Shown here: positions 4,150-64,000 of the stretch, piece by piece | How the letters are laid out: every line of letters begins with the position of its first letter | Position numbering within the stretch: the stretch's first letter is position 1 | Assembly: GCA_001458075.1 (NCBI GenBank) | Contig: LN899469.1 | Span: 2,557,501 to 2,621,500, forward strand | Reading direction: 5' to 3' | Source of the DNA: Idiomarinaceae bacterium HL-53 | GTDB taxonomy: Bacteria > Pseudomonadota > Gammaproteobacteria > Enterobacterales > Alteromonadaceae | DNA length: 64,000 bases | Program-made: the position numbers and the translations under genes | The notes under the pieces: generated by a model | Databases searched by the model: none | What the model saw: only the letters and a program-made list of their open reading frames with translations | What the model was told of the DNA's origin: nothing

Positions 4150-4195
4150 TTTTTTACAAATTTTATTAACAAATTTGAATTTTTAGTGATCTTAT

Positions 4196-4801
4196 TTATT
4201 CAAAGCGCTTTCGCCCTTTAAAAGCGTGACCGAGAGTACGATGATCGACATATTCAAGTTCTCCCCCAACGGGAATTCCGTGGGCAATACGGGTGGTAGA
4301 AATGTGATACTTTGAGGCAGTTTCGGCGATATAGTGAGCGGTTGCGTCACCTTCGGCGGTAGGATTAGTGGCAAGAATGACTTCTTTAATTTGGCTTTGC
4401 TGAAAACGTTTTTCTAGCAGATCTAAACCAATGTCTTTGGGGCCAATACCATCGAGTGGGGAAAGGTGCCCCATCAATACAAAATACAAGCCTTCAAATG
4501 ATTCTGTTTGTTCAACAGCGATAACATCTGCTGGTGACTCAACAATACAAAGTGTTTGGGCGGCTTCACGTTGTGGGTTCGTGCAAATGTGGCACTGCTC
4601 ACTTTCGGTGAGCGTACGACACGTCACGCAACGACCCACCACAGCAAGTGCATGCGTAAGGGTTTGAGTTAACTTTTCTGCACCCGGACGCTCTCTCTCA
4701 AGCAATTGAAACGCCATGCGCTGCGCACTCTTTTGCCCTACTCCAGGCAAAACGCGCAACGCTTTAATGAGTTCAGCAATCGCAGGGGAGAATTGAGACA
4801 T
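4196..4801 (-). CDS. recR: Recombination mediator RecR
   Basis: A 201-residue protein of normal RecR length. The N-terminal helix-hairpin-helix ([14 protein letters not shown]) is followed by a four-cysteine zinc finger (CVTC and CHIC pairs). A Toprim domain begins at [14 protein letters not shown], and the C-terminal [20 protein letters not shown] segment is characteristic. RecR works with RecO and RecF to load RecA on single-stranded gaps. It lies nine bases after ybaB and close to dnaX, the classic dnaX-ybaB-recR operon order. Confidence 0.97.
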
Positions 4802-8039: not shown

Positions 8040-8168
8040 TTACGCAGCGCCGAATAGCTGAACCAATCTAAGAACCGGGGTGAGCGACGCAATGCCCACA
8101 AAGGCAATAACCGCAAATAAAATATGACGCTTACCCGCGGCTTCTTGGAATTCGTGATTCTCTGACAT
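8040..8168 (-). CDS. Small predicted membrane protein, 42 residues
   Basis: A 42-residue frame beginning MSENHEFQEAAGKRH, followed by one hydrophobic helix (about residues 16-40, ILFAVIAFVGIASLTPVLRL and on). The ATG at 8168 has AGAGGTG six to twelve bases upstream, a good ribosome site. The in-frame ATG at 8264 has none obvious. It precedes the receiver gene by 40 bases on the same strand and may share its transcript. I do not recognise the family. Small single-span proteins of this type often bind larger membrane complexes, but no role can be assigned here. Confidence 0.55.
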   Translation of the reverse strand: MSENHEFQEAAGKRHILFAVIAFVGIASLTPVLRLVQLFGAA

Positions 8169-8327
8169 AAGCACCTCTAAACCTTTAATATCAACAGCTT
8201 GAGAAAACAAAATGATTATTAACTTCATTTCGTTGCGGCGGATTTTACACGAAATAGATGACAAGATAAAGAAACCGATCTGTAAGCAAAAAGCTAATAT
8301 AAAAGCTTAACCTGAGTGCAGTGTGCA

Positions 8328-8405
8328 GTGCATGCACAAGCAGACTCTATGAAGGCATGGATGCCGGAATAGGCGCGCCCATGGACGGCTCGAAGCGTGT
8401 CTGCT
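8328..8405. repeat. Nested palindromic element, REP-like candidate
   Basis: GTGCATGCAC (8328-8337) is followed by an outer 7-bp inverted repeat AGCAGAC (8339-8345) and GTCTGCT (8399-8405). Between these arms lie GGCAT-GG-ATGCC (8354-8365), GGCGCGCC (8372-8379) and CCATGG (8379-8384). This dense, GC-rich palindrome pattern is unlike the AT-rich flanks and is typical of dispersed intergenic repeats. Whether it recurs in this genome cannot be seen here. Confidence 0.45.
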
Positions 8406-48480: not shown

Positions 48481-50070
48481 TTACACTTCACGCGTTCTAT
48501 GGAACTCTACGTCTGGGTAGCGTTCTTGTGTTAACGATAAATTAGCCATGGTAGGCGCAATGTAAGTGAGGTTTTCACCGCCGTCCCATGCAAGGTTGGC
48601 TTCAGCCTTACGTTTGAATTCATCAAACTTTTTACCATCTTTTGAGCTCACCCAACGTGCAGTCGCAACTTGAATATTCTCGTAAATGGCCTCAACACCG
48701 TATTCAGACTTTAATCGGTGTACCACAACGTCAAACTGTAGCACGCCCACAGCACCGACAATCAGATCATTAGAAATCAATGGCCTAAATACTTGCACTG
48801 CACCCTCTTCTGAGAGTTGAACCAAGCCTTTCAACAATTGTTTCTGTTTGAGAGGATCTTTTAAACGAATCCGGCGGAAAAGCTCTGGCGCAAAGTTTGG
48901 AATACCCGAGAATTTGAAATCCTCGCCCCAAGTGAAGGTATCGCCAATCTGAATGGTGCCGTGGTTGTGTAAACCGATAATATCCCCTGGAAATGCAGTT
49001 TCGACCGCTTCACGGTCGCCGGCTACAAAGGTCAACGCATCGGCGATACGCACTTCTTTACCCGTGCGTACATGCTTCATTTTCATGCCTTTTTCATAGA
49101 CCCCCGACACAATCCGCAAAAACGCCACGCGATCACGGTGCTTCGGGTCCATGTTGGCCTGAATTTTAAACACAAAGCCAGAAAATTTAGACTCTTCGGC
49201 GGCGACAGTATTCCCTTGCTCAGTTCCCCGTGGCTGCGGTCTGGGCGCCCACTCAACCAACCCATCAAGCATATGATCCACGCCAAAATTACCAAGCGCC
49301 GTCCCAAAGTAAACTGGGGTCAGATCACCTTCGAGGAACATCTCTAAATCAAACTCGTGCGAAGCGCCCTTCACCAAGTCAATTTCATCGCGCAATTCAT
49401 CGGCATAACTACCAATACGCTTATCGAGCTCAGGATTATCGATACCTTGAATAATGTCTAAATCTTGAATACGGTGACCTTGGCCACTCTTATATAAAAT
49501 CGTTTCGTCACGGAGTAAGTGATACACGCCCTTGAAGTTCTTGCCTTGTCCAATTGGCCAAGTAATGGGCGCGCAAAGTATATTCAACACACTTTCAACT
49601 TCATCCAGCAATTCCAAGGGATCCCGAATGTCGCGATCTAATTTATTCATGAAAGTGATAATGGGTGTGTCACGCAGCCGCGTCACTTCCATTAGCTTAA
49701 TAGTTCGCTCCTCAACCCCTTTGGCAGAGTCAATGACCATCAAACAGGAGTCTACCGCCGTCAATGTGCGGTAAGTGTCTTCCGAGAAATCTTCGTGGCC
49801 CGGCGTATCAAGTAGATTCACTAACGAGTCGTGATATGGAAATTGCATCACCGAGGTGGTCACCGAGATACCCCGCTCTTTCTCCATTTCCATCCAGTCA
49901 GACTTTGCATGCTGTCCCGACTTCTTGCCCTTCACCGTACCTGCTTTCTGAATTTTCTGACCGTGCAGAAGTACTTTTTCAGTAATGGTGGTTTTACCCG
50001 CGTCTGGGTGCGAGATGATAGCAAAGGTCCTTCGCTTATTGATTTCATTGAGAAAATCTTGGTTTGCCAT
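48481..50070 (-). CDS. prfC: Peptide chain release factor 3
   Basis: A 529-residue GTPase. The G1 motif is in [20 protein letters not shown], then [30 protein letters not shown] and [10 protein letters not shown]3 recycles RF1 and RF2. The gene is full length and intact, but its 5' end lies at the boundary with the integrated element. In SXT/R391 insertions the element supplies a new start and promoter for prfC; the first residues [12 protein letters not shown] differ from E. coli MTLSPYLQEVAK, in line with this. Confidence 0.96.
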
Positions 50071-50326
50071 GTATAAATTCTTTTAGTTTGTACACGGATT
50101 TGTACACACTTTTGGAAGTACTCTCTTTTCAGTTCTTCGCTTGTCAAATCCGTCGTGTTAATCGTAATTGGCCGCTATTTTCGCTGATCTTGACTTTATA
50201 AACAATCAATGGTTATCTAATCGGTTACCATTTACTCTCAGCGTGCGCCAATGCTCAGTTGTAGCTGTTTGCAATCGTTGCTTCTTCAGCTCATGAACAA
50301 CTGTGGCTAAACCACAAATTCCTTCG
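50071..50326. other. Element end region upstream of prfC
   Basis: About 256 bases between prfC and setR, with no gene. It should carry the new prfC promoter and perhaps integrase or recombination-factor sites. Two direct copies of TTTGTACAC lie at 50,087-50,095 and 50,099-50,107, each with a TGTACA palindrome. A TTGACA at about 50,143-50,148 (minus) has no good -10 at the usual spacing. Confidence 0.45.
50087..50107. repeat. Paired TTTGTACAC direct repeats near attR
   Basis: Two 9-bp identical copies start 12 bases apart, so they face the same way on almost one turn of helix. They lie 17-37 bases upstream of the prfC start. Candidate protein site, for example an arm-type integrase site or a regulator of prfC. 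Confidence 0.4.
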
Positions 50327-50974
50327 CTACCAGAAATCGATGATAGCTTGTCGTACTACACCGATGATGGTGCAGTTGCCGTTGATCGGTATTGCAGGGT
50401 ATTGCGGGTTCAAAGGTTTTAGGTACTTCTGTTCACCATCAATAACCAACTGCTTAAAGGTCGCTTCTTTCGAATCATCCAAACGCGCAACAACCAATGA
50501 ACCTGATGAGTAAGGTAACTCAGGATCAACAACGATCACTGCTCCCTCAGGTATGGATTTTTTTCCGCTTGGATTTTCCATACTGTCGCCTTTTACGCGA
50601 AGTGCGAAACAACCCTCATGTGCTTTCCCAGTGACGTCACGCCACTCCTCAGCATCTTCATGGGCAAATCCCTCCGCTATTTCAGTCCAATCACCGGCCT
50701 GAACCCAGTTAATGAGAGGAATTCTTCCCTTAATATCAGGCCCGACTTCTACATTACCGACCCCCAAGCCAATCTCGCCATCACCTGTGGCGAGCCAATG
50801 AGCATTCACGCGAAGCGCCTCCGCGATCTGCATGGTGTAACGAGACCTAGCCGATTTACCAGAGCAAATCTGGCTGATCGACTGCTGTTTAATACCAATG
50901 CGACGAGCCAACTCAGACTGAGTCACCCCAGTAAGCTGCAAGGCATGGTTTAGTCGTTCGGATAAAGTTTTCAT
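50327..50974 (-). CDS. setR: CI/LexA-like repressor SetR
   Basis: A 215-residue repressor. An N-terminal helix-turn-helix (TQSELARRIGIKQQSISQI, residues 18-36) is joined to an S24 self-cleaving domain. The probable cleavage site is Ala93-Gly94 (NWVQAGDW), nucleophile Ser131 (VKGDSMENP) and Lys174 (EATFKQL). In SXT/R391 elements SetR shuts off transfer and is cleaved with RecA help after DNA damage. Divergent to croS, with four operators between them. Its -10 box lies so near the ATG that the mRNA would be almost leaderless. Confidence 0.9.
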   Translation of the reverse strand: MKTLSERLNHALQLTGVTQSELARRIGIKQQSISQICSGKSARSRYTMQIAEALRVNAHWLATGDGEIGLGVGNVEVGPDIKGRIPLINWVQAGDWTEIAEGFAHEDAEEWRDVTGKAHEGCFALRVKGDSMENPSGKKSIPEGAVIVVDPELPYSSGSLVVARLDDSKEATFKQLVIDGEQKYLKPLNPQYPAIPINGNCTIIGVVRQAIIDFW

Positions 50975-50982
50975 AAGCCCGT

Positions 50983-51011
50983 ATTCTACAAATAAAACTG
51001 TAGCCTTTCAA
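50983..51011 (-). promoter_or_regulatory. setR promoter
   Basis: Minus strand TTGAAA (51,006-51,011), 17-base spacer, TAGAAT (50,983-50,988), each one or two bases from consensus. Only eight bases separate the -10 from the ATG at 50,974, so the transcript would have a leader of zero to three bases, as for lambda cI from PRM. Operator 1 fills the spacer. Confidence 0.75.
50988..51001. promoter_or_regulatory. SetR/CroS operator 1
   Basis: ACA-AATAAAAC-TGT. First of four sites with the form ACA-N8-TGT in the setR-croS gap. It lies inside the spacer of the setR promoter, so a bound protein would block setR. Confidence 0.75.
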
Positions 51012-51024
51012 CAATTTTAACTGT
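51011..51024. promoter_or_regulatory. SetR/CroS operator 2
   Basis: ACA-ATTTTAAC-TGT, the second site, 23 bases from the first. It touches the -35 boxes of both divergent promoters. Confidence 0.75.
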
Positions 51025-51053
51025 TGACTTATCTACAGTTTAAACTGTAACAT
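51024..51053 (+). promoter_or_regulatory. croS promoter
   Basis: TTGACT (51,024-51,029), 18-base spacer, TAACAT (51,048-51,053), directed at croS at 51,092. Operator 3 lies in the spacer and operator 2 abuts the -35, so repressor binding would close it. Confidence 0.6.
51035..51048. promoter_or_regulatory. SetR/CroS operator 3
   Basis: ACA-GTTTAAAC-TGT, a perfect 14-bp palindrome and the best-formed of the four sites. It lies within the croS promoter spacer. Confidence 0.78.
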
Positions 51054-51064
51054 TCAATCTTGTA

Positions 51065-51078
51065 ACAGTTTTTATTGT
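51065..51078. promoter_or_regulatory. SetR/CroS operator 4
   Basis: ACA-GTTTTTAT-TGT, the fourth site, 30 bases after the third and just upstream of the croS ribosome site (AGGAGA at 51,082-51,087). Slightly less symmetric than the others. Confidence 0.65.
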
Positions 51079-51091
51079 AACAGGAGACGGT

Positions 51092-51343
51092 ATGGAAGTG
51101 TTCAACACGACACAAAAACATCTCCGCCGTGCCATTGACTTGGTCGGCGGGCAATCAGCATTAGCACGAGCCATCAACTCAAAGCAGCAAAACGTCTGGT
51201 TTTGGTTGAATAAATCAGGGCGTGTTCCCGCTGAATTCGTTTTACCCATCGAACAAGCTACGCAAGGACAGGTAACCCGATCCCAGTTAAGACCTGACAT
51301 CTATCCCGAATGCCCAAGCGAGCTGAAAGCCAGTAACCAGTAG
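51092..51343 (+). CDS. croS: Cro/YdaS-like DNA-binding protein CroS
   Basis: An 83-residue helix-turn-helix protein: LRRAIDLVGGQSALARAINS is followed by KQQNVWFWLNKSGRVPAEFVLPIEQAT, the YdaS/Cro pattern. In SXT, CroS antagonises SetR and is needed to turn on transfer after damage. AGGAGA five bases before the ATG supports the start. It faces setR across the four-operator region, as cro faces cI in lambda. Confidence 0.85.
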   Translation: MEVFNTTQKHLRRAIDLVGGQSALARAINSKQQNVWFWLNKSGRVPAEFVLPIEQATQGQVTRSQLRPDIYPECPSELKASNQ

Positions 51344-51398
51344 GATTAAGGGCAAGTAATGGTCAGCATTTTACGTAAACACAGAAGCGAGAACCTCC

Positions 51399-52268
51399 AT
51401 GCGTGATTATGGCAAGGTCTATACCCGCTTTTGGCTAAAGCAAAATGTTTTGTCCTGGAGTGACTCTGCGAAGTTGCTAGGACTGTATTTGCTTACATGC
51501 CCACACTGTAATTTGCTTGGCTGCTTTCGATTGCCGATTGGTTACGTTGCTTCTGACTTGAACTGGGATGAGCAACAAGTTGCTAAGGCTTTAAGTGAGT
51601 TAGAACAAGATAAGTTCCTGATTCGTTGCGAGGAATCCGGTTGGACTTTGATTCGGAGCTTTCTGAAGCACAATCCAATCGAAAACCCAAACCAAGGTAA
51701 GGCAGCCTTTCGGTTACTTAAAGATGTACCTGCCGACTTCGTTGGTATGGCATCGCTTTTGAAATCTCTTGCCGCTTTCCAAGCTCGGCTTCCAGAAGAA
51801 TTTTCATCATTGTTTATGCCTGATGGCAACCCGGTAAGGGACTCTCAACGGTCGGATGACTCTGAGAGAAGCAATAAACCAACAGTTAAAACTGTTGACC
51901 ACATACAGTTTGAAGACTTCTGGGATGTACAAATACGCAAAGAAAAAAAAGCGAAAGCCAAAGAAGAATGGCTACGCATGGGCCTCAATGAAGACCATGA
52001 ACTCGCCTTGGAAGTGCTAACACGCTGGAAAGAGCAACGAGACAACCGATTACAGTATCAAGATCGGACTAAGACCCCTATGCCACATAACTGGCTTTTA
52101 AACCGGCAATGGGAAGACGAGTACGTTCGCATTGATGAAGTACAGCAATCATCGACGAGCCTAAAGGGCAGCAATCACCAATTGAATATTGAAGAAAGCA
52201 ATCGTCGCATCGCTGAAAGCTGGGCCGGACCAGGTATTCGGGAGGTTCGTTCAAGTGCAGGAGGTTGA
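51399..52268 (+). CDS. DnaT/phage O-like replication protein
   Basis: A 289-residue protein with an N-terminal winged-helix region like phage replication initiators (KVYTRFWLKQNVLSWSDSAK, SDLNWDEQQVAKALSELEQ). A polar linker (about residues 145-170) precedes a C-terminal segment with FWDVQIRKEKKAKAKEEW and TPMPHNWLLNRQWEDEY, seen in DnaT or O-type proteins that recruit primosomes. It follows croS, the place of O in lambdoid phages. Function is inferred from fold-like motifs and position. An operator-like palindrome sits inside its linker coding region. Confidence 0.62.
   Translation: MRDYGKVYTRFWLKQNVLSWSDSAKLLGLYLLTCPHCNLLGCFRLPIGYVASDLNWDEQQVAKALSELEQDKFLIRCEESGWTLIRSFLKHNPIENPNQGKAAFRLLKDVPADFVGMASLLKSLAAFQARLPEEFSSLFMPDGNPVRDSQRSDDSERSNKPTVKTVDHIQFEDFWDVQIRKEKKAKAKEEWLRMGLNEDHELALEVLTRWKEQRDNRLQYQDRTKTPMPHNWLLNRQWEDEYVRIDEVQQSSTSLKGSNHQLNIEESNRRIAESWAGPGIREVRSSAGG
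51882..51895. promoter_or_regulatory. Operator-like palindrome inside the replication gene
   Basis: ACA-GTTAAAAC-TGT, the same ACA-N8-TGT form as the four setR/croS operators, with flanks extending the symmetry to CAACAGTT and AACTGTTG. It lies in the linker coding region of the O-like gene, followed about 50 bases on by an A-rich tract. It may be a fifth repressor site, or part of a replication origin. Confidence 0.5.
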
Positions 52269-52917
52269 TAAACGCGAGTTTGCTGAAGTTTGGGGAGCAG
52301 CTTGGGCCATGTATGGCAAAAGCGTATCACCGCAATTGCTATCCATCGCATTTGAAGCCCTTCGTGCTTATAGCATTGAAGAAGTGCGAATCGGTCTGAC
52401 TCGGCATATTCAATCACCGGATACTGGGCAATTTTTTCCAAAGCCCGCTGACGTCATCAAGCATATCGATGGCAACTCGGGTTCAAGAGCCATGATTGCT
52501 TGGAACAAAGTTGACAAGGCTGTTCGTCAGGTTGGCGCTTGGACATCCGTGATGTTTGACGATGCACTTATCCACCGCGTGATTTCAGACATGGGGGGAT
52601 GGGTTGAACTCTGCAAAGTTGATGACAGGGAATACCCCTTTAAGCAAAAAGAGTTTTTAACACGCTACCAGGCTTACTTGCTGCGCGACGAAGTGGGTGA
52701 ATACCCAAGGCTATTACAGGGTATTGCAGACCATCAGAACCAGCAAAAAGGATTTGATATGCAAGCGCCGGTTGCCGTGGGCGACTGGTCAAAAGCAGCA
52801 CAAGTTTATACAAGAGGCATCGCTGACTTTAGCGCAGTGCCTTTAAAAAGAATAAGCCCGAAAGCCATTCAGGCGCTTCTCGGAAATCAATTAGAGGACA
52901 AAAATGAAAACGATTAA
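52255..52917 (+). CDS. Phage P-like replication accessory protein (DUF6475-like)
   Basis: A 220-residue protein. Its N-terminal half shows FAEVWGAAWAMYGKSVSPQL and FFPKPADVIKHIDG, a pattern of phage-type helicase-loading proteins and of DUF6475. GTG at 52,255 has GGGAGG ten bases upstream and overlaps the preceding gene by 14 bases; an ATG at 52,189 in the same frame would overlap by 80 and is less likely. With the O-like gene before it, this is a lambda-like O-P pair. Role inferred. Confidence 0.6.
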   Translation: MQEVDKREFAEVWGAAWAMYGKSVSPQLLSIAFEALRAYSIEEVRIGLTRHIQSPDTGQFFPKPADVIKHIDGNSGSRAMIAWNKVDKAVRQVGAWTSVMFDDALIHRVISDMGGWVELCKVDDREYPFKQKEFLTRYQAYLLRDEVGEYPRLLQGIADHQNQQKGFDMQAPVAVGDWSKAAQVYTRGIADFSAVPLKRISPKAIQALLGNQLEDKNEND

Positions 52918-53452
52918 AGCAAAAACCATTGCCCTAGTGATAGCCATGTCTGCAAGCACTTCAATCTATGCGTTTCCGGGCTATCAGTGGGAAAAAGCAG
53001 CACAAAGCGTTGGTATCGATCCAGTCATGCTCTACGCCGTTGCCTTGGCTGAGTCGGCCTCACATCGTGGTCTCAACATGACCAGTCCATGGCCATACGC
53101 AATTCGCAATGGTTCAAATGCAACCTACGCCAAATCTAAGACAGAAGCAGAGCAACTGTTAAACCAGGCACTACAAGAGACTGAAAAATATCAGCTCGAT
53201 ATTGGCCTTATGCAAATCAATTTGCATTGGCATGGGCATCGGGTGAGCTCAGCAGCGGAACTGCTAGACCCCATCACCAACCTTACGGTCGGCTCAAGTA
53301 TTCTGGCCGAAGCAATCAAGTCTTCACCAAATGATTTTGAGCTTGGCATAGGCCGCTATCACAGTTGGAACGAAGAGCGTGCACGCTGGTATGGGCAAAG
53401 AGTGCTTTCTATTTATCGCAATATTTTACATGAACTGGAGGTCCGTCAATGA
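52904..53452 (+). CDS. Lytic transglycosylase (SLT)
   Basis: A 182-residue secreted protein (signal peptide to SIYAFPGY) with an SLT fold: catalytic Glu50 in YAVALAESASH, then LDIGLMQINLHWHG and a GIGRYHSWNEERARWYGQ tail. Such enzymes cut peptidoglycan to let a conjugation apparatus span the wall. It overlaps the P-like gene by 14 bases and setD by four, so the forward genes form one operon. Confidence 0.85.
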   Translation: MKTIKAKTIALVIAMSASTSIYAFPGYQWEKAAQSVGIDPVMLYAVALAESASHRGLNMTSPWPYAIRNGSNATYAKSKTEAEQLLNQALQETEKYQLDIGLMQINLHWHGHRVSSAAELLDPITNLTVGSSILAEAIKSSPNDFELGIGRYHSWNEERARWYGQRVLSIYRNILHELEVRQ

Positions 53453-53748
53453 CAACCAATCAACAAGACTTCTATCAATTAAATTTGGCGTACCTACACG
53501 CAGCGCGAGAATTAGCGCGAATTGATCCGCAAGAGGCGGTCTTGCGCTTTGGACTTACACGCGACGTGGTTGATGCACTGATTAATGCTGGTGTTGACGA
53601 CCTGCAACGAGTGGCGACCTCATCATTCATGCTGTTTCAACCAAGGGGTAACCAAAGCCAACTGATTGAGATGGTGAAGAGCAAAGGCACAGGTATCCCA
53701 AGAATCGCTTATTTATTATCAACCCTAAACAACAAGGGGGATGCATGA
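53449..53748 (+). CDS. setD: FlhD-like activator SetD
   Basis: A 99-residue protein resembling flagellar regulator FlhD: FYQLNLAYLHAARELARIDPQEA, FGLTRDVVDALINAG. In SXT/R391, SetC and SetD form an FlhC/FlhD-like complex that activates int and transfer genes. It overlaps the transglycosylase and setC by four bases each, typical of translational coupling. Confidence 0.85.
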   Translation: MTTNQQDFYQLNLAYLHAARELARIDPQEAVLRFGLTRDVVDALINAGVDDLQRVATSSFMLFQPRGNQSQLIEMVKSKGTGIPRIAYLLSTLNNKGDA

Positions 53749-54278
53749 TTGATAACCTGTCCAAAAGTGAGCTGTTTACCCGAGCCTCGCTGCTTATTAA
53801 GTACGGATTTCGAACGACCATTATCGCGCTCGATACTGGTTTGCCAATCCACATTATCAGAAGGCTTCACAAAGAAGTGACGGGCAAGTCACCTTGTCCT
53901 GGTCAATTGCCAGAATCTGATGCCATCGTTAAAAGCAGAAGAGCCCTAGTTGAAGGCTCCCTGCTGATGGCGCTTTATGTCAATATTGGTGGTGATAATG
54001 TCTACAAGCAATTAAATATTGATGCTTTGATGAAAGCTTACGATGCGTACTTGGTTGCAAGGGAAGAAGCAGATCTTCCAGCTGAGATCCCCTGGAAAAA
54101 ACTAACCATCAATGAAGGTTGGGTTTTAGCTCGTGATTTAAGATCACAGCTTGCATCCTTACACCGGTGTCGATGCGGTAGTCTGTATTTGACGGTATCT
54201 CAACAGCGCATTCAGCTTAAATGTCCTGTGTGCGAGATTATGGCCGAGCAAACCACTAGAGCACTTTTTGAGAACTAA
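53745..54278 (+). CDS. setC: FlhC-like activator SetC
   Basis: A 177-residue FlhC-like protein. The N-terminal helices (LFTRASLLIKYGFRTTIIAL) precede a zinc site with Cys142, Cys144, Cys160 and Cys163 (RCRCGSLY and LKCPVCE). It pairs with SetD as master activator of SXT/R391 transfer. The setD-setC order and overlap match the family. Confidence 0.87.
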   Translation: MIDNLSKSELFTRASLLIKYGFRTTIIALDTGLPIHIIRRLHKEVTGKSPCPGQLPESDAIVKSRRALVEGSLLMALYVNIGGDNVYKQLNIDALMKAYDAYLVAREEADLPAEIPWKKLTINEGWVLARDLRSQLASLHRCRCGSLYLTVSQQRIQLKCPVCEIMAEQTTRALFEN

Positions 54279-54332
54279 CATGCTGATACATGATTTGATT
54301 GTGCACCGCCTGTGCACTTGGAGAGTACTAAG

Positions 54333-54764
54333 ATGACAAGCTTACTTAAATCTTTACCAGCACGCTGCTGGGTTATTTCACTGGGGCTTTTTCTGGCGAC
54401 TTTGGCTGTGGCTCATTTTTTTCCCTCAGAAATATTAACAGCATCTGCCAAGTTAGCGGCTTTGCCATTTCTGTTCTGCACCGTCGTTTTTTTCAGCTAC
54501 TTGGGATTCAAAGCGACCTGTAACCCCATCGGCCTTATAGCCATCACCACTATGTTTTTAGCAATCGCATATTGGCAAGCGAGTTGGACAATTGTTGGTT
54601 TGGGACTCTTTTTCATAGTTATTTGTACTGGAATTAGATTCTTGAGCAGCCAAGTTAAAGATTCGGGTAGAACTTTGAGCATTGAAGAAAAATGGTATTG
54701 GTATAAGCTCCATTCGTTTTTTGATGGCTTTTATCCAAGGTATCCCAAAAAGCCAAAAAAATAG
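54333..54764 (+). CDS. eex: Probable entry-exclusion protein Eex
   Basis: A 143-residue protein with about four hydrophobic segments (VISLGLFLATLAVAHFF, LAALPFLFCTVVFFSYLGF, two more to about residue 100) and a polar, basic cytoplasmic tail. The ATG at 54,333 follows GGAGAG and gives 143 residues, the length I recall for SXT Eex, an inner-membrane protein that blocks entry of the same element. It sits beside traG, as eex does. No sequence alignment was possible, so identity rests on size, topology and position. Confidence 0.65.
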   Translation: MTSLLKSLPARCWVISLGLFLATLAVAHFFPSEILTASAKLAALPFLFCTVVFFSYLGFKATCNPIGLIAITTMFLAIAYWQASWTIVGLGLFFIVICTGIRFLSSQVKDSGRTLSIEEKWYWYKLHSFFDGFYPRYPKKPKK

Positions 54765-54786
54765 CCAGCCCACCACAAGCTGGCTA
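54755..54786 (-). terminator. Intrinsic terminator after traG
   Basis: Stem TAGCCAGC (54,762-54,769) with GCTGGCTA (54,779-54,786), nine-base loop, and seven T on the minus strand. It stops traG-side transcripts and overlaps the eex stop codon. Weaker in the forward direction. Confidence 0.82.
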
Positions 54787-54796
54787 CCTTCTATTT

Positions 54797-57700
54797 TCAG
54801 TTCCTTCCTGATGCCTGGTTATAGGCCCTAATATCGATCAAGTTGTTCTGAGCATAATCTCCCGCAAGGGATGCATTTGAGATCACCGCTATCTGCTTAT
54901 CCACAAATGCTTTATCTTCTTCGGACACACTGTCAGGGATGTAACCGCCACTCTCATCCTTTTGACGATAGTCATTTAGCATTTGCTCCCTTAGACCAAG
55001 CATTTCAGGCGACCAACTCGATGAGTCTTCAGAGTTGAAAACGCGCCCCGCCAAACCTTCATTGAAAGCTTGAGCGAACACTTGACTTTGTATCGGAGTC
55101 AATCCCATTCTCTGCCCTTCGCTGTATGCTTCCTGTTTAAAATCATCGGCGTACTGTTCTAAGAACTCACCATACCGATTGTTAACTGCCGCACCAAATG
55201 CCCCCGCCAACATGGCTTCAGACTTAGTGCCCCAGTTTACTTCGGAGGCATACTGCGAACTCGATCCACTGTATGCATCATTAAACGCCGTCAATGGATT
55301 TTCCAAAGAGGTTCCGGCATCAACGGCGGCTTTTAAGCCATCCCAGGTTGATTTGCTGGCCACCGTTGCATTGTGCAAGAAACCTCGTGAGCCAGGATCT
55401 TCAAGCGCTTGTTCTTTGTAACTCTCATAGTCTTCGCCAAAGTGATTCAAGGTATGCAGTGCTGCATCAGTATGCTTGCCACTGAAATCACCAATAGCAC
55501 TGGCGCTGTTGAAGAACATTTCAGCACCAGAAACTCCGCTATCATCAGCCATAATGCGTGATCGCCACTGAGATCCAGCCTCACTGTTTAGTCCTGATTG
55601 ATAGGTACTTGTGTCAGAAGCTACGGCCTGCTGAGCTTGCTGCTGATGCTCATTCAACTGTCCATCTATACCAAACAGATTGGTTTGGTAAGCCGATTGA
55701 GCTGCGTTGAACTGAGTTTGAACTGTTGCTGCATCCTCGTATCCGCCCAATACACCCGATTCAACTTGGCTTTGAGTACCACCAAAAGTAGGTGCAGTTG
55801 ATGACAAGCCTTCATTTGAGCGCGGCTGTATCGAGCGTAAATCAGCTCCGGTAGCCATGGCCATAACCGTCATTGCAGCTTGATAATCATTGTCGCGTTC
55901 AGCGGGCGTTGAAGAGTTGCTATAGGTTAAAGACTCCATAGCTGCGGCCACATACGCCTGATTATCCTCAGGTAACAAGCGCTGATACATTGGAAGGTTT
56001 TCACGTAAACGGTTACCTGCTTCAACATGCTGGTTCATATAGCGACCTAAATAATCCATGACTTCAGGATTGTCCGCCGCTAATCGGGTTAACGTCGCAC
56101 CATCAGTATTTCTTTGTCCTGATAGACTGTAGCTGGCCTGATCAAGCTCACTAAAGCGATTTGATGCCGTGACAACGTCTTGTGCTGAACTCTGAAGTGA
56201 CTGATAGTCTTGGTTAGACAAGGACATCTCAAAGCCAGAACGTCTTGAGTCTGAAAGGTCCTTAACCATTGCATCGCGATACTCAGCACGTCGTGAATCA
56301 CTCGATGCCAAGCTTTGCATCTCCCCAGTGAGCGTATTTGCGGTCGTAGATCGAGAACTGCCTTCTGACGACTCAACTTGGCCACTAAAGTTACCACCTA
56401 AATCCAGCCCTGCTCGTACCCTTGATAGTTTTGGTACACGAGATGAGTCTGGCTTATCGACTCCTGGCAAGTTGCCCTGTGGAGAATCATTGCCGCCAGT
56501 ACCAAGAAGCCTTCCAAGAAAGCCCTTATCAGCAACTTCTTTCTCACCGGGATTAGTAATGGTTCCATCGCCACCGACCCTTAGGCCTCCCGATAGCACG
56601 CCCGATACCAAGCCACGTACAGCATCTTTTTTATCGTCTCCAAAACCATACCGAGTTTGCAGGTCATCAGTAACCTGATTAACAACGGCGCTAGATGCGG
56701 AGTTAGAAGAACCAATCTGACGTCCAACCGAAGACAGGTTGTCGTAACTTAGCTTTTCACCAAAAGTTCGACTCATGGTATTGCCAACCTGACGACTAAA
56801 GGCTTGGGTTGCCTGAGTCATGGATTCTTTTGCAGAGCCGACCATTGAACCCACCGCATTTCCGACAGAGAAACTGCTAAGTAGGTTTGACGCGCCGGTC
56901 ATAGCAGAACCAGTGAGGGCTGAATTTTGGAACATTGACTGTGATTGCATCACCGGGGCATTTTTCGCGACATCTGGACTTGCCATCTTTTCATCAATTG
57001 CATCACCGTTTTGAAGACGTCCAGCCAAGTGGGTAGCGGTTATTGCTGAGCCATACACGAGCATGAGCGAAATCGCCGGAACACTCGACGCCAACATGCC
57101 GCCAGTAGCTATCCAGGTTTGCAGCACTGAATCCATCTGCATCATCCCAGCAAAAGATGGCACTTCTGTACCTGCAAAGGCATCAAGAGCCGACATTTTC
57201 CCTGCAACGGTTAAATGAATATACAGGTTAATGATGGCCATGACAGGCATCCAAAGTTGAATCCAAAGCAGGATTAACAAGTACTTCCCGGCCATTCGCA
57301 TCCCGATTTGGCCAAGGGCAATCACAAAGGCCATCAATGGGGTGATGGCGTAAATGAAACCCTCAAAAAACGTCATCATCGGACGAACGATACTTTGGAA
57401 CAGGGTCTGCTCCGCCGCCCATTGCGTATTGCGCTGCTCAATCGCTTGGTTAACCATCACGGCAGCGGTGAAAGCTTGATCATCCATATACTTGCCCGTC
57501 ACGCTTTGCTCATAAATAGGCAAAAGCACCGACGAGGTCATGTACTCTTGGGTGTTAACCGAGGCCAAACCAAGATTATTCAGTGCATTTCGGATCACGT
57601 CATCAGTGTCCGTTGCTGACGAAGTCCCCAATGAGGCCGACAGAACCTGTTTAAGCCTTGGAATGAAGGTTGATTCTGTCATGAGTTTCAGCTGGCTATA

Positions 57701-58366
57701 GGCATCGGTGCAGTCCAGATCGCTACTGCTACCACTGAGCATGATGCGCGTGCCATAAATGCGCGAATCAAACCTAAGCGCAGTCATCGGGTTAGGATCA
57801 CTCAGCACCTGATCGAGGTTCTTTTGGCCAATGTCGATACCAATCAAGGTGCACTCTTTGATGTAGTTAAACCACGATTGCTCTATGTCCGAACCGCCGA
57901 CACGATTTGCATCACCCAACCCAGAGCGATCCATCACCTGTTTTCTCACTTTAATCAGTGACTGTAAACTGGATGCAAAGCCGTATTCCGTCATCGCGGG
58001 AGTTGAGAACGCCGTTTCAAACAATCGCGTGATTTGAAAGCCAACTGTAGAAATCGTACTGCCTGCGGCAGCAACACCGATGGGCACATTATCAACCACT
58101 CGAACTTGTCCCGTGTACGCATCCTCAATGCTCACTCGAGTACTGGGTCCAAACATGGTTGCAAAGACTAGCCATGAGACTAAAACGTGCTGAAAGTTAA
58201 TCCCACGACCACCTTGCATTAAGGCCTGAACAGAGACCATCAATACCCCAATGAGCAAGCCAATCCGAACCATTGAAGTAAAGTCGCCTGTACCAGTGAT
58301 CATCGCGACAGCGTTCAAGACCTGCTCTAAAAATGCCGAATCCCCGATGGAATAGATCTCCCACAT
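54797..58366 (-). CDS. traG: Mating-pair stabilisation protein TraG
   Basis: A 1,189-residue F-type TraG. The N-terminal half has several membrane helices (for example residues 30-75, 335-390 and 425-450). The C-terminal half is a long polar domain, Ser/Gly/Gln rich, which in the donor contacts the recipient Eex. Residues 606-608 are P-G-E. From memory of SXT work, this triplet marks the S exclusion group, while R391 has T-D-D. It follows traH by three bases. Confidence 0.93.
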   Translation of the reverse strand: MWEIYSIGDSAFLEQVLNAVAMITGTGDFTSMVRIGLLIGVLMVSVQALMQGGRGINFQHVLVSWLVFATMFGPSTRVSIEDAYTGQVRVVDNVPIGVAAAGSTISTVGFQITRLFETAFSTPAMTEYGFASSLQSLIKVRKQVMDRSGLGDANRVGGSDIEQSWFNYIKECTLIGIDIGQKNLDQVLSDPNPMTALRFDSRIYGTRIMLSGSSSDLDCTDAYSQLKLMTESTFIPRLKQVLSASLGTSSATDTDDVIRNALNNLGLASVNTQEYMTSSVLLPIYEQSVTGKYMDDQAFTAAVMVNQAIEQRNTQWAAEQTLFQSIVRPMMTFFEGFIYAITPLMAFVIALGQIGMRMAGKYLLILLWIQLWMPVMAIINLYIHLTVAGKMSALDAFAGTEVPSFAGMMQMDSVLQTWIATGGMLASSVPAISLMLVYGSAITATHLAGRLQNGDAIDEKMASPDVAKNAPVMQSQSMFQNSALTGSAMTGASNLLSSFSVGNAVGSMVGSAKESMTQATQAFSRQVGNTMSRTFGEKLSYDNLSSVGRQIGSSNSASSAVVNQVTDDLQTRYGFGDDKKDAVRGLVSGVLSGGLRVGGDGTITNPGEKEVADKGFLGRLLGTGGNDSPQGNLPGVDKPDSSRVPKLSRVRAGLDLGGNFSGQVESSEGSSRSTTANTLTGEMQSLASSDSRRAEYRDAMVKDLSDSRRSGFEMSLSNQDYQSLQSSAQDVVTASNRFSELDQASYSLSGQRNTDGATLTRLAADNPEVMDYLGRYMNQHVEAGNRLRENLPMYQRLLPEDNQAYVAAAMESLTYSNSSTPAERDNDYQAAMTVMAMATGADLRSIQPRSNEGLSSTAPTFGGTQSQVESGVLGGYEDAATVQTQFNAAQSAYQTNLFGIDGQLNEHQQQAQQAVASDTSTYQSGLNSEAGSQWRSRIMADDSGVSGAEMFFNSASAIGDFSGKHTDAALHTLNHFGEDYESYKEQALEDPGSRGFLHNATVASKSTWDGLKAAVDAGTSLENPLTAFNDAYSGSSSQYASEVNWGTKSEAMLAGAFGAAVNNRYGEFLEQYADDFKQEAYSEGQRMGLTPIQSQVFAQAFNEGLAGRVFNSEDSSSWSPEMLGLREQMLNDYRQKDESGGYIPDSVSEEDKAFVDKQIAVISNASLAGDYAQNNLIDIRAYNQASGRN

Positions 58367-58369
58367 TAT

Positions 58370-59758
58370 CTATTCCCCCAGCGCCGTAGATTTAACGGTG
58401 TAATAACGCTGTTTGCGAATGGTCTGAATCACCTGGTTAAAATGCGCCAGCAATTCTTGCTCTGAGCCGTATCTTCGCTGCAACGCAGCGTACTCCTCAT
58501 TGATTTGGCGACGTGCACGTTCAAGGTCTTCCGTTAATAACTTCGCATAGGCATGATCTTCCACACCGGAGGTACTTCTAGCTGCATTGAGCATGTCTTC
58601 AACCAATGCTCGGGCCATCTCAACAGCAATAAATGGCGCAGCTCTTGAAGCAAACGACCTAGCAGCCCCTTCATTTAAAGCAGAAAGTGTTCGAATCATG
58701 CCGCCAATGCTTGCAGGAGCCGAGGTCATAAAAGCCTTTTCGGTGGTGCTAGCAGCTCCTGTATTTCGAGCAAACTTAAAAATAATGCCGTTACTAGAAC
58801 CTGTACCAAGAAGTAAATTTTCGACCTGAGTTGATAACCCGGTTAGGGTCACGTTAGTGATTGTCGGATTTAGACAGCCGTCTTGTGTCACTGTGTCACA
58901 TCGGTACATAGCGACGTTACCGCCATGAATTAGATGCTCAATAGTCACTTTATTGCCATTCAGTCTGGTCAGTTTTGGGGCTTTACCTTGGCCATCAGCG
59001 GCATTCGCTAAATCACCAACGATGATCGAGCCCGTCACGGACATAACCGCTTCAAGAAAACGATCATCCCCCGATGCAAACCAGCTTGATGCCGAATGAC
59101 GTTTCAGTGCTCGCCAGACCAAATTACCTTTAATCGTTTTGTTCACATCAGATGCCGCGACACTTGAAGCATTCTCGTAAGGGTTCTTACCGTTGGATTC
59201 ACTCCAACTGGTAAAAACGTCTCCAGCCCCTTTAAGTGAGCTCAACATGCTGGCTTCTGTTTGCCCCTTTTTACCAAAAGCAGCCAGGGTATCGTTCACG
59301 ACTCCCTGAGCCATTTGACAGGAATTGCCGAAATACTCGTTCAACTGCTGGATTTTCTTTTGCAGTGTCTCCATGTGCTGGGAGCATTTCTCACACATAG
59401 CACTGAGCGCCAATTGGAATGCATATCCCTTGGCGTTTGCAGCAACAGAGCGAAGTAATTGAACAAACTGATCCGCGTTAACAAATGACAAACTTCCAGC
59501 GAACATATCAATGCCGCCACAACCGGCTTGGAATGACGGTGGCACCATAGAGACGAGGTTCTCATTCATGATCCTGTTACGAACAACAACACTTCCTCCA
59601 GATATAACGCCACGTCGTTGACTCTCGAATACACCAGGCGCAGTGCTGTTGGTCATTGAACCAAACAACTGGTTCATCTCCTGTTGCAAACTTGCTTGGC
59701 TCATAGACGAAAAACCAATCGCACAGGCGATTAACGATACTTGAAATACTTTTTTCAT
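58370..59758 (-). CDS. traH: Conjugative pilus assembly protein TraH
   Basis: A 462-residue periplasmic protein with a signal peptide (SMSQASLQ) and F-type TraH features: PPSFQAGCGGIDMFAGSLSFVNADQF, a CEKC pair and a C-terminal coiled coil. TraH helps extend or retract the mating pilus with TraF. It ends three bases before traG and starts two bases after the traF stop. Confidence 0.95.
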   Translation of the reverse strand: MKKVFQVSLIACAIGFSSMSQASLQQEMNQLFGSMTNSTAPGVFESQRRGVISGGSVVVRNRIMNENLVSMVPPSFQAGCGGIDMFAGSLSFVNADQFVQLLRSVAANAKGYAFQLALSAMCEKCSQHMETLQKKIQQLNEYFGNSCQMAQGVVNDTLAAFGKKGQTEASMLSSLKGAGDVFTSWSESNGKNPYENASSVAASDVNKTIKGNLVWRALKRHSASSWFASGDDRFLEAVMSVTGSIIVGDLANAADGQGKAPKLTRLNGNKVTIEHLIHGGNVAMYRCDTVTQDGCLNPTITNVTLTGLSTQVENLLLGTGSSNGIIFKFARNTGAASTTEKAFMTSAPASIGGMIRTLSALNEGAARSFASRAAPFIAVEMARALVEDMLNAARSTSGVEDHAYAKLLTEDLERARRQINEEYAALQRRYGSEQELLAHFNQVIQTIRKQRYYTVKSTALGE

Positions 59759-59760
59759 CG

Positions 59761-60705
59761 TTATAACCCTCCTTGTGCACGCAGATAGCGAACAAGGAAC
59801 TCAGGGTCCTGTAATATCTTTTCGTTAAGCTCTTGGACTGACATCGCGAGTGACACGCCGGGTTGAACAGGCCTGGTGGCATAGTAAGTTTGATCGTCAA
59901 TCCAACCGGCTTGATGGGCTGCAAGAATGATTCGATTATTGAGCTCATCAAGGCTCATTGCGCCCTGGCCAATCGGAGTGATGACATTAGGCGGGTCTAC
60001 TAAGAAGACCGCTGGAACAGTCGTAACGGACAACGATTGTGCTTGTCCTGAATCGACTTTGTAATTTGGAAATTCTCCACTAGGTAAAGGCAAGCCATCG
60101 ACAGCAATAGCAAACACCTCGAAACCGTAGTTCAAAGCCATGGATTCGATGATAGGCGCTTGAGCATGGCAGTAAGGGCAATCCGAACGATAGAAGAAGA
60201 ACAAACCAGCCCGTTTTGCTACTTCACCTAAAGCAATATCTCGTTGAGAGCCAGCTTCTCGATCCATCCGATTGGCAGCATAAGTAGCCAAGGGTCTGCG
60301 ACTGATTTCATCCAAAACAGGATCGCCCATGACCACCTGCTGACTAACATCAGCAAATAGTGAGCCCTTATCCATCATGACGCGCTGGAGATACAGATAG
60401 GCTCTAACGTTCTCATTCGTCGGCTCATCAATTGCCTTGTCCATGAACGACTGCATGTGCTCTCGGAACCAGGCAGCACTGAAGAGTTTTAGCTCGTCCT
60501 TAGTGGGCTCCATGACTCCAGATTCTGGCTTTATTTGCTCTTCAGCCTCCGCTGGTTCAGGAATGACCCGATACCAAAACCAGCCTTCCTGACCACGCTG
60601 ATAGAATGGACCATCACTGGCATGGGCGGGCAAGATGAATAGAAAGAAAATAATGATTGGGATGGTCACCCACAGGATAAACCAAGGTAACAAAGGGGTT
60701 CTCAT
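59761..60705 (-). CDS. traF: Conjugative pilus assembly protein TraF
   Basis: A 314-residue exported thioredoxin-like protein: N-terminal membrane helix (residues 8-28), then FFFYRSDCPYCHAQAP with the active pair Cys176 and Cys179. F TraF and its relatives help fold and assemble the transfer pilus; here the CPYC motif suggests disulfide activity. First of the leftward traF-traH-traG run. Confidence 0.92.
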   Translation of the reverse strand: MRTPLLPWFILWVTIPIIIFFLFILPAHASDGPFYQRGQEGWFWYRVIPEPAEAEEQIKPESGVMEPTKDELKLFSAAWFREHMQSFMDKAIDEPTNENVRAYLYLQRVMMDKGSLFADVSQQVVMGDPVLDEISRRPLATYAANRMDREAGSQRDIALGEVAKRAGLFFFYRSDCPYCHAQAPIIESMALNYGFEVFAIAVDGLPLPSGEFPNYKVDSGQAQSLSVTTVPAVFLVDPPNVITPIGQGAMSLDELNNRIILAAHQAGWIDDQTYYATRPVQPGVSLAMSVQELNEKILQDPEFLVRYLRAQGGL

Positions 60706-60944
60706 TGTCAGCTCCAGAAAATTTCATAGAGCTAACATGCTAAAGATCCCCGTTAGAGCGATTGGACAGATAGATGAAGGAATTGTGTGTGTTTCTGACT
60801 ATAGGGAACTGTCAACCCAACTCAGCTGACTTGTCACTATCTCGATAATGCCTATGATATAAAACTGACACCCAACTCAATAAACAATCTCGACTTCAAA
60901 ACAATGACATTTCGTTGATCAATGGCCTTTCTCCACAAAAAACG

Positions 60945-62372
60945 TCACCGATTAAAAACCTTAGAATAAAGGGCATTAATAAAAATGCTGCACTGCTCTT
61001 TCATTTTCCTGTTAAAATCAATATACGTATCTTCAGGTATTTTTAGAAAAAGAACATGGAACGGTATCTCTTGTCCTTGCTGCTGAATAATATCTGAAAT
61101 CACACCCTGTGTTTTTTCAAGGTTAAGTGAAGCCCATCGTTCTTCTGATATAGGGTAAATAAATCCACATCCCTTGATTGCGGCAACATTTCCATGCTGC
61201 CCTATGTAAGTATGTAGCTGAAAAAGATCTTCACGCTTCACCCCAAATTGTGAATCAAATGCTTTATACTTCACATCAAATACGAATAAACTCTCATCGA
61301 TTTCTATAACAAGATCAGGTTCAAGTTTTCTCATATAACCACTGAGAGCACCAGATGCTATTTGCTGACGTTGCTCGAACTTACCTAGCAGGCGTAGCCC
61401 ATCTCGCTTGATGAGCTTACGAATGAAATATTCAAACAACATCGAAATATCGAAAAAGAAAGCACTCGAATCCTGCTGCGAATCAAAATCAGAGCCCTTC
61501 CTGTCAATGACTTGCTTAGATAAGTCAATGAGCACGTTATAATCATTGTAGAAAGGGTTGGTGAAATGAGAAGTCCTCAAAATTTCTTGCTGTGACCTTT
61601 TAATCCCCTGATTGGCAGTCAGAAATGCACTATAGATATTTCGTGTTTGGTGACAAAATGAGTAATGTGCAACTGCTTCATAAGCTTTTATAAAAAGTGA
61701 AGTTGCAGGGCTGTCGTAGCTGTGCTCTCGGTACGAGCATAAATATTTTCCAGATGATTTATTCTGGAAATAATCTGTAGCATTTATAGTTCCCCTTACG
61801 CGGGAAATACGATCATTTCTTGTAATATAAGTCTTTGGCAAGCCTAGGCGGTAGGCTCTCTTAAACTTAATGTTCCACAGATATGCTAAAAGCCACTCGT
61901 AACCGTCTGCGTGACTTTCTCCTCCAATGTTTTCTAATTCGAGAAATCCATCGGCATCTGCAATGATGTATTGAAGGAAAGCATCACCAAAACGTGAGCT
62001 GATCTTCAGAGAGTAATCTCCTCGCTTAACAAATCCGATTAGATTGCCCGTGTCGAGATTAAAATTTCTGGCATCCGTACCAGAGACACCGATGAAACCG
62101 CCATCTGTATTGTGTTCGTAATCTTCATCATTGAAGAGTATTAAAGCATCGGAAATATTATCATTCAGCGTTTTTTCGACATCACGAGATACCGAATTCA
62201 AAAAGTGCCAAATTGCAGACTCGTCGTTATGAGGATAGGTCCATTGTCCTTTTGATTTGGCACTAAGGGTTATCGACTTACCTAAACGTCTATTTGTCAA
62301 AATGCCTTCGCTGACAAAATAGGACTGGTTATCGACCAGTGTGCCGTTCTTAATGATATCGAAAAGCCACAC
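60945..62372 (-). CDS. mcrC: McrC-like restriction endonuclease subunit
   Basis: A 475-residue protein of the McrC/LlaJI family. The C-terminal part has a PD-(D/E)xK nuclease core (LEPDLVIEIDESLFVFDVKYK), and the N-terminal part is a beta-rich McrB-contacting domain. It partners with the adjacent McrB-type GTPase to cut modified DNA. GTG at 62,372 begins three bases after the mcrB stop. It lies past traF, a cargo site in SXT/R391 elements (hotspot HS3 by my recollection). Confidence 0.82.
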   Translation of the reverse strand: MWLFDIIKNGTLVDNQSYFVSEGILTNRRLGKSITLSAKSKGQWTYPHNDESAIWHFLNSVSRDVEKTLNDNISDALILFNDEDYEHNTDGGFIGVSGTDARNFNLDTGNLIGFVKRGDYSLKISSRFGDAFLQYIIADADGFLELENIGGESHADGYEWLLAYLWNIKFKRAYRLGLPKTYITRNDRISRVRGTINATDYFQNKSSGKYLCSYREHSYDSPATSLFIKAYEAVAHYSFCHQTRNIYSAFLTANQGIKRSQQEILRTSHFTNPFYNDYNVLIDLSKQVIDRKGSDFDSQQDSSAFFFDISMLFEYFIRKLIKRDGLRLLGKFEQRQQIASGALSGYMRKLEPDLVIEIDESLFVFDVKYKAFDSQFGVKREDLFQLHTYIGQHGNVAAIKGCGFIYPISEERWASLNLEKTQGVISDIIQQQGQEIPFHVLFLKIPEDTYIDFNRKMKEQCSIFINALYSKVFNR

Positions 62373-62375
62373 AGT

Positions 62376-64000
62376 TTAAACCCCAAATGCCTTTCCGAAG
62401 GAGCTAATCAGCTCAGTCTCCTTACCTGTTCCACGAAGATACTCCTGTAATAACGGACGAATACAATCATCCCATACACGCTCTCGCACCTCCGAAACTG
62501 TAAGGCTGGTTGCATACTTTAAGTCCATCAAATAGGCATGACCAATTTGGTAATCATTACCAAGCAAAGGTTCTTTAGCTATCAATTCATTCAAGCGTTC
62601 AAGGTTATCCACCAAGGGCAGCCAAGCTTTGCAAAATTGGTTCAAATGGTATTTCAATAGCGCCATATCAGGCACCACTTCTTCCCAACGGAATCTTCGA
62701 CGCAAAGCAAAGTCAAAACTTTCGACACTTCTGTCTATCGTGTTCATCGTTCCAATAAGATAGATGTTTGTTGGAATGAAGAACAAATACCCTTGTGCCT
62801 CCTTAAGCATACCAGTATGTTCATTGTTCAGATTGGAATATTGGGTTTTAACGCAACCTCTAGTACCTCGGTATTCCAGACAGTACATTAACTCACCAAA
62901 AACGCGAGACAACTCAGCCCGGTTTACCTCATCAATTATGAAGAAAAATGGTGGTACTGCTTCCGATACAAGCTTGGATATATCTGATATTTCGAAAATA
63001 TCCTGCCAATGCTCGCCTGATAATTTTTCTCTAAACGGGAGAAGTTCCTTGATAGTAAGAGACTCCCACCTCTGAGTAAGTCCAAGCCCATATAAATCGA
63101 TTTCCCACTTACCAGCGCTTCGGCAAAACTCTTTAAAAACACCATTTTGCAACGTTAATTGAGAGTTCCCATCATTGTCCAAAACCGGACGTAGCCCTTC
63201 CATAAAGTCTTCATAACTGAAAGAAGGATGAAATTGAACCAACTCAATCTGACTTGCATGTGTGAGACGGCTGTAGGGAGCAAATTCCTCTTTCCAGATG
63301 TCAAACAAAAGCGAAGTTTGCAGGCGTGCTTGATAAGTTTTCCCTGTCCCCGGCGCACCGTATTTAACAATCTGCTTCTTTAAACTGAATGGGTTTGACA
63401 AATTCTCGTAAAGCACCCAAACAAACTGACTAAGATAAAACTCATCAGTTTTACCTTCCCTAAGCTCATTATCAAACTCGCTTTTGATGCTCTTTAATAG
63501 AAAAATGTTTTTAGCAAACCAGCTTTGATTTTCTTCTGCTGGGTATACTGGAATTATCCCTTCGCGTATAAGCCAACTAAAAACCTGATTGAATTTACCG
63601 GAATCAACCGTTGTGGAGACTTCGAGCGTACAAGCTGCTGCCACTCGATTAACGAGAACAGGGTTGTTGGATTTACCTTGGTTAGCCCACGTATCAGCAA
63701 AAACCGTGAAGTTTTCACTGTTTGGAATCAATATAAATTGTTCTAATGCGGATATGAAATCCTTGTTTTTAATGAATGACTGGAAATTGTCATTGCTCAA
63801 CACAGACTGTCCGCGAGAAGCGATACCGTTACTCTTCTCATAGATTAACTGCTTCAGAAAAGCTTCATCATTTTGAGACAAGCCTTCTCCAGATGTGATT
63901 CGCTCACGGATTTGAGCGACCTGACTGTAAAAGTCTCGATAGGCTTTGTGCCATCCATTGACTTCATGCTTCCTGTTCTCAATAAGATATTTATATAGGT
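62376..64000 (-). CDS. mcrB: McrB-like AAA+ GTPase, 5' end beyond the window
   Basis: At least 541 residues. The AAA+ core has Walker A YGAPGTGKTY, FFIIDEVNRAELS, and the McrB GTP-specificity motif MNTIDRSVESFDFALRRRF. A frame-opening TTG at 63,881 is not the real start: reading on upstream gives LYKYLIENRKHEVNGWHKAY and further open codons to the window edge, with no stop. So the N-terminal DNA-recognition domain lies outside. It powers McrC cleavage of methylated DNA and likely protects the host and element from phage. Confidence 0.85.
   Translation of the reverse strand, partial: LYKYLIENRKHEVNGWHKAYRDFYSQVAQIRERITSGEGLSQNDEAFLKQLIYEKSNGIASRGQSVLSNDNFQSFIKNKDFISALEQFILIPNSENFTVFADTWANQGKSNNPVLVNRVAAACTLEVSTTVDSGKFNQVFSWLIREGIIPVYPAEENQSWFAKNIFLLKSIKSEFDNELREGKTDEFYLSQFVWVLYENLSNPFSLKKQIVKYGAPGTGKTYQARLQTSLLFDIWKEEFAPYSRLTHASQIELVQFHPSFSYEDFMEGLRPVLDNDGNSQLTLQNGVFKEFCRSAGKWEIDLYGLGLTQRWESLTIKELLPFREKLSGEHWQDIFEISDISKLVSEAVPPFFFIIDEVNRAELSRVFGELMYCLEYRGTRGCVKTQYSNLNNEHTGMLKEAQGYLFFIPTNIYLIGTMNTIDRSVESFDFALRRRFRWEEVVPDMALLKYHLNQFCKAWLPLVDNLERLNELIAKEPLLGNDYQIGHAYLMDLKYATSLTVSEVRERVWDDCIRPLLQEYLRGTGKETELISSFGKAFGV

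Follow-up and report, generated by a model that had tools for sequence, protein, structure and literature searches.

What occupies the 5' end of prfC, the release factor 3 gene, in Idiomarinaceae bacterium HL-53, and whose promoter and start codon does this gene now have? The window, meaning the whole stretch of 64,000 nucleotides that was analysed (G000:C1:2557501-2621500), comes from a genome of one contig (2.74 Mb). Judged from its sequence, and with a probability of about 97%, the right part of the window is the right end of a 71.9 kb integrative and conjugative element (ICE) of the SXT/R391 family (type 1, prfC-targeting) that looks structurally complete. The right 14 kb of the ICE are inside the window, with approximately 58.0 kb more beyond the window end.

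The element and its attachment sites

Window positions 50000 to 64000 match the chromosome of Escherichia coli ET734 (NZ_CP100922.1) with 96.7% identity and 100% coverage, far above chance; a match to this region is present in 7 of 5426 E. coli genomes. The next three stretches of the ICE are 94–97% identical to E. coli ICEs, with best coverages of 100%, 81%, and 70%. Gene order in ET734 is alike, being prfC, LexA-like repressor, Cro-like, FlhD-/FlhC-like, eexS, traG, traH, traF, McrC, and McrB. The published SXT/R391 backbone has 52 core genes. Gene content was compared with two E. coli ICEs, those of ET734 and WP4-S18-ESBL-08 (NZ_AP022095.1), and 59 of the 68 mechanically called open reading frames (ORFs, at least 60 amino acids) have at least 90% identity over at least 90% of the length in one of the two. 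In this mechanical set an antisense ORF stands where croS should be. The integrase is a tyrosine recombinase of 413 amino acids (G000:C1:2677393-2678634), adjoined by xis; these are 99.8% and 100% identical to their ET734 counterparts. The initial annotation of this DNA, which had recognised an SXT/R391-type element, expected an integrase and an attL site with the displaced prfC start elsewhere in the genome, and both are found about 70–72 kb away on the same contig.

Comparison of both junctions with ET734 places the crossover inside a 17 bp stretch of prfC codons 19–24, and the crossover in ET734 is at the identical place. The attL core is at G000:C1:2679444-2679460, 71,944 bp from the attR core, and displaced prfC codons 1–27 are present at the far end of the ICE (G000:C1:2679434-2679514). 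Insertion at the 5' end of prfC, as first proposed, is borne out by these features. The element edge had been set at 50040; the true edge is the 17 bp core at 50000-50016. Since the crossover is in codons 19–24, the element supplies codons 1 to approximately 19 of prfC plus the region upstream, and the host's own start has been left at attL, as far as the sequence indicates. The prfC gene had been described as intact with an element-supplied start; the ORF is indeed open, and the att comparison accounts for the start. That SXT gives prfC a new promoter and N-terminus is already on record in an excerpt of PMC8409611. The presence of the same upstream sequence in native prfC of element-free strains had been named as evidence to the contrary, but 12 of 13 element-free congeners have no match to the ICE leader (z score of 1.5 or less), with L016 reaching 7.2 over 42 promoter-like bases; G013 was left out, its prfC being at a contig edge.

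A 14 bp sequence, TTTGTACACACTTT, is a putative arm-type site for the integrase. When both strands were searched with up to 1 mismatch, three copies were found in the 90.4 kb stretch around the element, all in the last 600 bases of its two ends. A gene beside attL, which is taken to be DUF368-like, could not be used to locate the empty site by synteny; among the genus members listed, G010 has it on a different contig from its prfC and G003 does not have it. Composition gave no element edge, the GC content of the element being near that of the host except in McrBC, and no tRNA was found in the window.

Some results weigh against this identification. Nine of the 68 ORFs fall below the 90/90 mark, of which four have no match in either reference ICE and a Mod-like ORF is at 71%, all five being located in cargo. 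The remainder comprises eex (89.6%), an ORF truncated where the reference locus stops, and a pair of doubtful ORFs (62 and 105 amino acids). A simple sigma-70 scan of the right-end leader also found no consensus promoter. Composition gave no element edge, the GC content of the element being near that of the host except in McrBC, and no tRNA was found in the window.

An immobile SXT/R391 remnant fixed in the host is an unlikely alternative. Integrated copies can be defective, as in ET734, where the ICE relaxase gene is interrupted as annotated, but here Int, xis, the relaxase (716 amino acids), TraD, TraC, TraN, TraG, and setCD are all open and both att cores are present. A different integrative element merely sharing the prfC site was rejected as barely conceivable on the 96–97% DNA identity of the backbone, even though other islands do occupy prfC, such as a decayed one in G065, which contains hipB/hipA-like ORFs and a piece of integrase resembling SXT Int at 53%.

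The integrase would have joined a circular ICE to the host at the 17 bp core, moving the host promoter and first codons to attL and providing prfC with an element promoter and start. The SetR and SetCD control genes are present, a finding of presence only; their regulation is described in parts of PMC4344509 and PMC4489591. As is known for SXT, SetR would repress its operon until cleaved upon DNA damage, and SetCD would then activate the int, xis, and tra genes so that the element excises and transfers. The structure, the att sites, and the hybrid prfC are seen in the sequence; activity and mobility of the ICE, and expression of prfC from it, are predicted.

Displaced and ICE-type leaders of prfC

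The displaced host start at attL itself resembles the ICE leader: 49 bp in the promoter region are 90% identical, and 70 bp spanning the start are 83% identical. When the coding part is left out, the match has a score of 73, the best of 200 shuffles reaching 27. In the last 40 bases before the ATG, which contain TGTACA repeats in the ICE, the displaced start agrees with the ICE at 28 positions, compared with at most 23 for 20,000 random 40-mers from the window and at most 15 for the 13 element-free congeners (9 and 12 in two of them).

Left junctions are visible in 41 of 55 integrase loci, three of which are too short (L129, L155, and L174), leaving 38, with one (L145) not readable as a prfC start. 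Together with the window host, 39 displaced leaders were scored: 6 have z scores above 20, 6 are between 10 and 20, and 27 are in neither group. That of Idiomarina loihiensis SN11 is 81% identical to the ICE leader over 194 bp and retains both TGTACA repeats. In Providencia rettgeri PROV023 (L142) the sequence of the displaced prfC start at attL is MTDQNFLHEVSTRR, and an ICE-like promoter block accompanies it. Such a displaced prfC start is unexpected for an enterobacterium.

Order-wide, 38 of 394 genomes, the window host counted, match the 311 bp right end of the ICE. Eleven match the whole right end at 98.7–100%, and setR is adjacent in all 11. At least 195 bases are aligned at 73–88% in G305, G114, G259, G199, and G166, where tblastn found no setR within approximately 1.5 kb. 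Of 30 loci read from the 59 genomes of the G114 genus, 3 have leader and setR, 1 is at a contig edge, 3 have the leader alone over at least 195 bases (G114, G517, and G506), 10 have only 38–89 leader bases, and 13 have none. When genomes were sampled evenly across the class and searched for the leader together with setR, a single one of the 368 others matched, and over just 50 bases.

The right end in G305 is of the ICE type over 433 bp at 82%, including approximately 115 bp of decayed 3' setR that scores 102 against 47 ± 7 for shuffles (maximum 70, 300 shuffles). This genome has no SXT-like Int (best 24%), no second, displaced prfC start was seen in it, and its one congener in the sample, G284, has a different prfC start. 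Its last 40 bases before the ATG agree with the ICE at only 19 positions because of a one-base insertion. In G517, 305 bp are of the ICE type at 87%, beginning 2 bp past the ICE setR stop. This genome is one contig with no SXT-like Int (best 28%) and no second prfC start among the matches listed, and the locus is otherwise colinear with that of its congener G536, to which it is 77% identical across 1183 bp on the prfC side and 72% identical across 1739 bp on the opposite side, in a transporter gene and the sequence that follows it.

These cases suggest that ICEs may leave heritable replacement starts on prfC, which is likely for G305 and G517 and unproven for the window host. The presence of the setR remnant gives the direction in G305, from element to host. 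G517 has no setR letters of its own, yet fits a scar because the homologous stretch begins right at the edge of setR. For the window host, the absence of the leader from its congeners makes a scar left by an earlier element the simpler explanation; no setR remnant was seen at its displaced leader. Taken jointly, the reading is that SXT/R391-type elements leave their right end after loss, that a fossil ICE promoter and start codon permanently serve prfC in some marine gammaproteobacteria without an ICE, and that prfC of the window host was already a scar before the present element arrived. The odds on this joint reading are about even. Scars would form through element loss by deletion, not by clean Int/Xis excision, and the right end would be retained because it now drives prfC.

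Capture of the leader by an ICE from an Idiomarina-like or other marine host, the likeness then being no scar, is somewhat less probable, though a serious competitor. A promoter block of approximately 50 bp is common to the displaced or ICE-free leaders of several families, and in G398 it has a native-looking context next to a RimI-like ORF (by eye). No setR remnant rises above noise in G517 or G506 (scores of 38 and 43, against best shuffles of 65 and 80 in 200), nor in six of eight other ICE-free loci (G114, G259, G199, G166, G139, and G295); of these eight only G305 is clear of the shuffles, with G163 borderline (74 against 73, 100 shuffles). Against capture, the decayed part of the ICE setR before the same leader in G305 cannot have come from a host, and the 13 congeners of the window host do not have the full leader. 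Because the core promoter block is widely shared, capture by an ancestral ICE is possible and may have come first, before any scars.

Gene content, cargo, and hosts

The repressor, croS, setD/setC, eex-like, and traF-traH-traG genes named in the initial annotation are all recognised by Pfam or NCBIfam (Table 1). The set, cro, and s-gene names are presumed for the right-end genes; the domains themselves come from profile matches.

Table 1. Features of the right end of the ICE in the window.
Feature	Position	Strand	Basis
prfC (release factor 3), hybrid: ~19 codons from element, remainder host	48481..50070	-	open ORF and att comparison
attR 17 bp core, element right edge	50000..50016	.	comparison of both junctions with ET734
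element right-end leader: prfC promoter region and first codons	50017..50326	-	junction and leader comparisons
putative integrase arm-type site	50099..50112	.	copies at G000 2679049 (1 mismatch) and 2679299
terminator-like stem-loop after setR	50301..50317	-	
setR, CI/LexA-like repressor	50327..50974	-	Pfam S24 and HTH; 99.5% to ET734
croS-like Cro protein	51092..51343	+	Pfam YdaS_toxin; P22_Cro below cut-off
conserved ICE gene	51399..52268	+	99% to ET734
conserved ICE gene, start uncertain	52189..52917	+	ET734 label DUF6475
lytic transglycosylase	52904..53452	+	Pfam SLT
setD, FlhD-like	53449..53748	+	Pfam
setC, FlhC-like	53745..54278	+	Pfam
eex entry exclusion protein	54333..54764	+	NCBIfam EexR/EexS; 92% to ET734 protein labelled EexS
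traG	54797..58366	-	Pfam TraG_N
traH	58370..59758	-	Pfam TraH
traF	59761..60705	-	Pfam TraF
mcrC-like cargo beside traF, HS3 by position	60945..62372	-	NCBIfam McrC below cut-off; ET734 label
mcrB-like GTPase, 547 amino acids, extends to window 64019	62376..64000	-	Pfam AAA_5; NCBIfam McrB below cut-off; ET734 label

The McrC/McrB-like genes (60945-64019) are cargo that the initial annotation had not named, and the mcrC-like gene has no PADLOC match at 1e-5. McrBC is AT-rich (39–41% GC at window 61001-64000, against 43–50% for the remaining element inside the window). Cargo is in the family hotspots, with McrBC by traF (HS3), an AbiE pair by traA (HS2), and two genes by traL (HS1), the hotspots being defined as in the relevant part of PMC2791158. 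The AbiEi/AbiEii pair (PADLOC) and the two ORFs beside traL are those without a reference match. Another cargo block contains a PDC-S11 candidate defence protein, a 1293 amino acid protein weakly resembling DdmD, a helicase (so labelled in WP4), a type III methylase, and a WYL regulator; the PADLOC query set of nine entries did not contain the helicase, one of its entries was a piece of an 823 amino acid ORF, and McrB was represented by a piece of 21 amino acids. The helicase and methylase would form a type III restriction-modification pair. The methylase (G000:C1:2668384-2670234) is 71% identical to its counterpart, with the rest of the block at 93–100%, perhaps through a swap of the recognition-bearing subunit. 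No antibiotic-resistance gene name is present in the E. coli annotation of the matched stretches; no resistance library was scanned.

The ICE of ET734 shares the prfC site, McrBC, and the near-identical integrase and xis with the present one, but its left part contains BREX among other genes and it has, as annotated, insertion sequence interruptions, whereas the present ICE has the block with the type III methylase and its relaxase ORF is uninterrupted. The ICE of WP4-S18-ESBL-08 is alike in the tra region and the DUF4268/helicase/methylase cargo block, differing in the methylase, in having no match to the AbiE pair, and in a umuC that is annotated as incomplete. With SXT and R391 (PMC2791158), the integrase, prfC site, hotspot cargo, SetR/SetCD, and Eex are common features, and the backbone is probably one too; rumAB (UmuD, UmuC) is open and uninterrupted here, and no resistance name is seen in the annotation described above.

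In data with one genome per species, 54 of the 55 loci have Int at 95–100%; several of these are partial, and Marinomonas fungiae contributes four. The hosts, by record title, are mostly marine gammaproteobacteria and include Alteromonas, Pseudoalteromonas, Shewanella, Vibrio, Marinomonas, Providencia, Yersinia, Aliidiomarina quisquiliarum, and I. loihiensis SN11 (Int residues 128–413 only). In the genus of the window host, ICE leader and setR are at prfC in 3 of 17 genomes (G000, G005, and G007); G007 has Int at 100% and G005 has no Int match above 35%. Idiomarinaceae are named as SXT/R391 hosts in PMC7251087 and PMC8399275, and the present element is therefore one more member of a known family.

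In G005 a further fragment of the prfC start, preceded by an ICE-like leader, is present (L045, G005:C9, ~8121-8350) beside an ORF reading like the AbiEi of this element, and is read as a tandem or rearranged element in a genome without SXT-like Int. L238 (G185:C22:288500-306000) has two ICE-type right ends separated by approximately 12 kb, of which the second matches over 204 bp with 92% identity; they are read as tandem or truncated elements. Tandem SXT/R391 arrays at prfC are established, according to sections of PMC2786100 and PMC4489591. The decayed island at prfC in G065 (L237, G065:C4:348000-357000) has a prfC start fragment at ~3892-3960, an Int N-terminal fragment at 4177-4386 (the 53% match), and the hipB-/hipA-like ORFs, which were recognised by eye; these are followed by a different type of prfC leader (TTGTACAAAATGGGAATTT). 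At L092, L097, and L098, HsdR-like restriction or AbiEii-like ORFs (by eye) are just upstream of prfC leaders, without setR there. The prfC gene may be a wider site for defence islands.

Implications for the family and for prfC

The SXT/R391 family is known for spreading drug resistance, and this member has defence-type cargo. Its backbone has 96–97% identity to E. coli copies whose sources are sediment, pigs, and a chicken, in keeping with movement of such elements between marine and enteric hosts. A search of the open-access literature, with subscription papers outside its scope, listed no paper dealing with prfC leader scars. If the scar reading is true, each ICE-type prfC leader would record past occupancy by an ICE, and infections would be traceable in genomes that are now element-free. 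The interpretation of prfC leaders would then have to change, since a mobile element would have lastingly replaced the promoter and start of a gene for translation.

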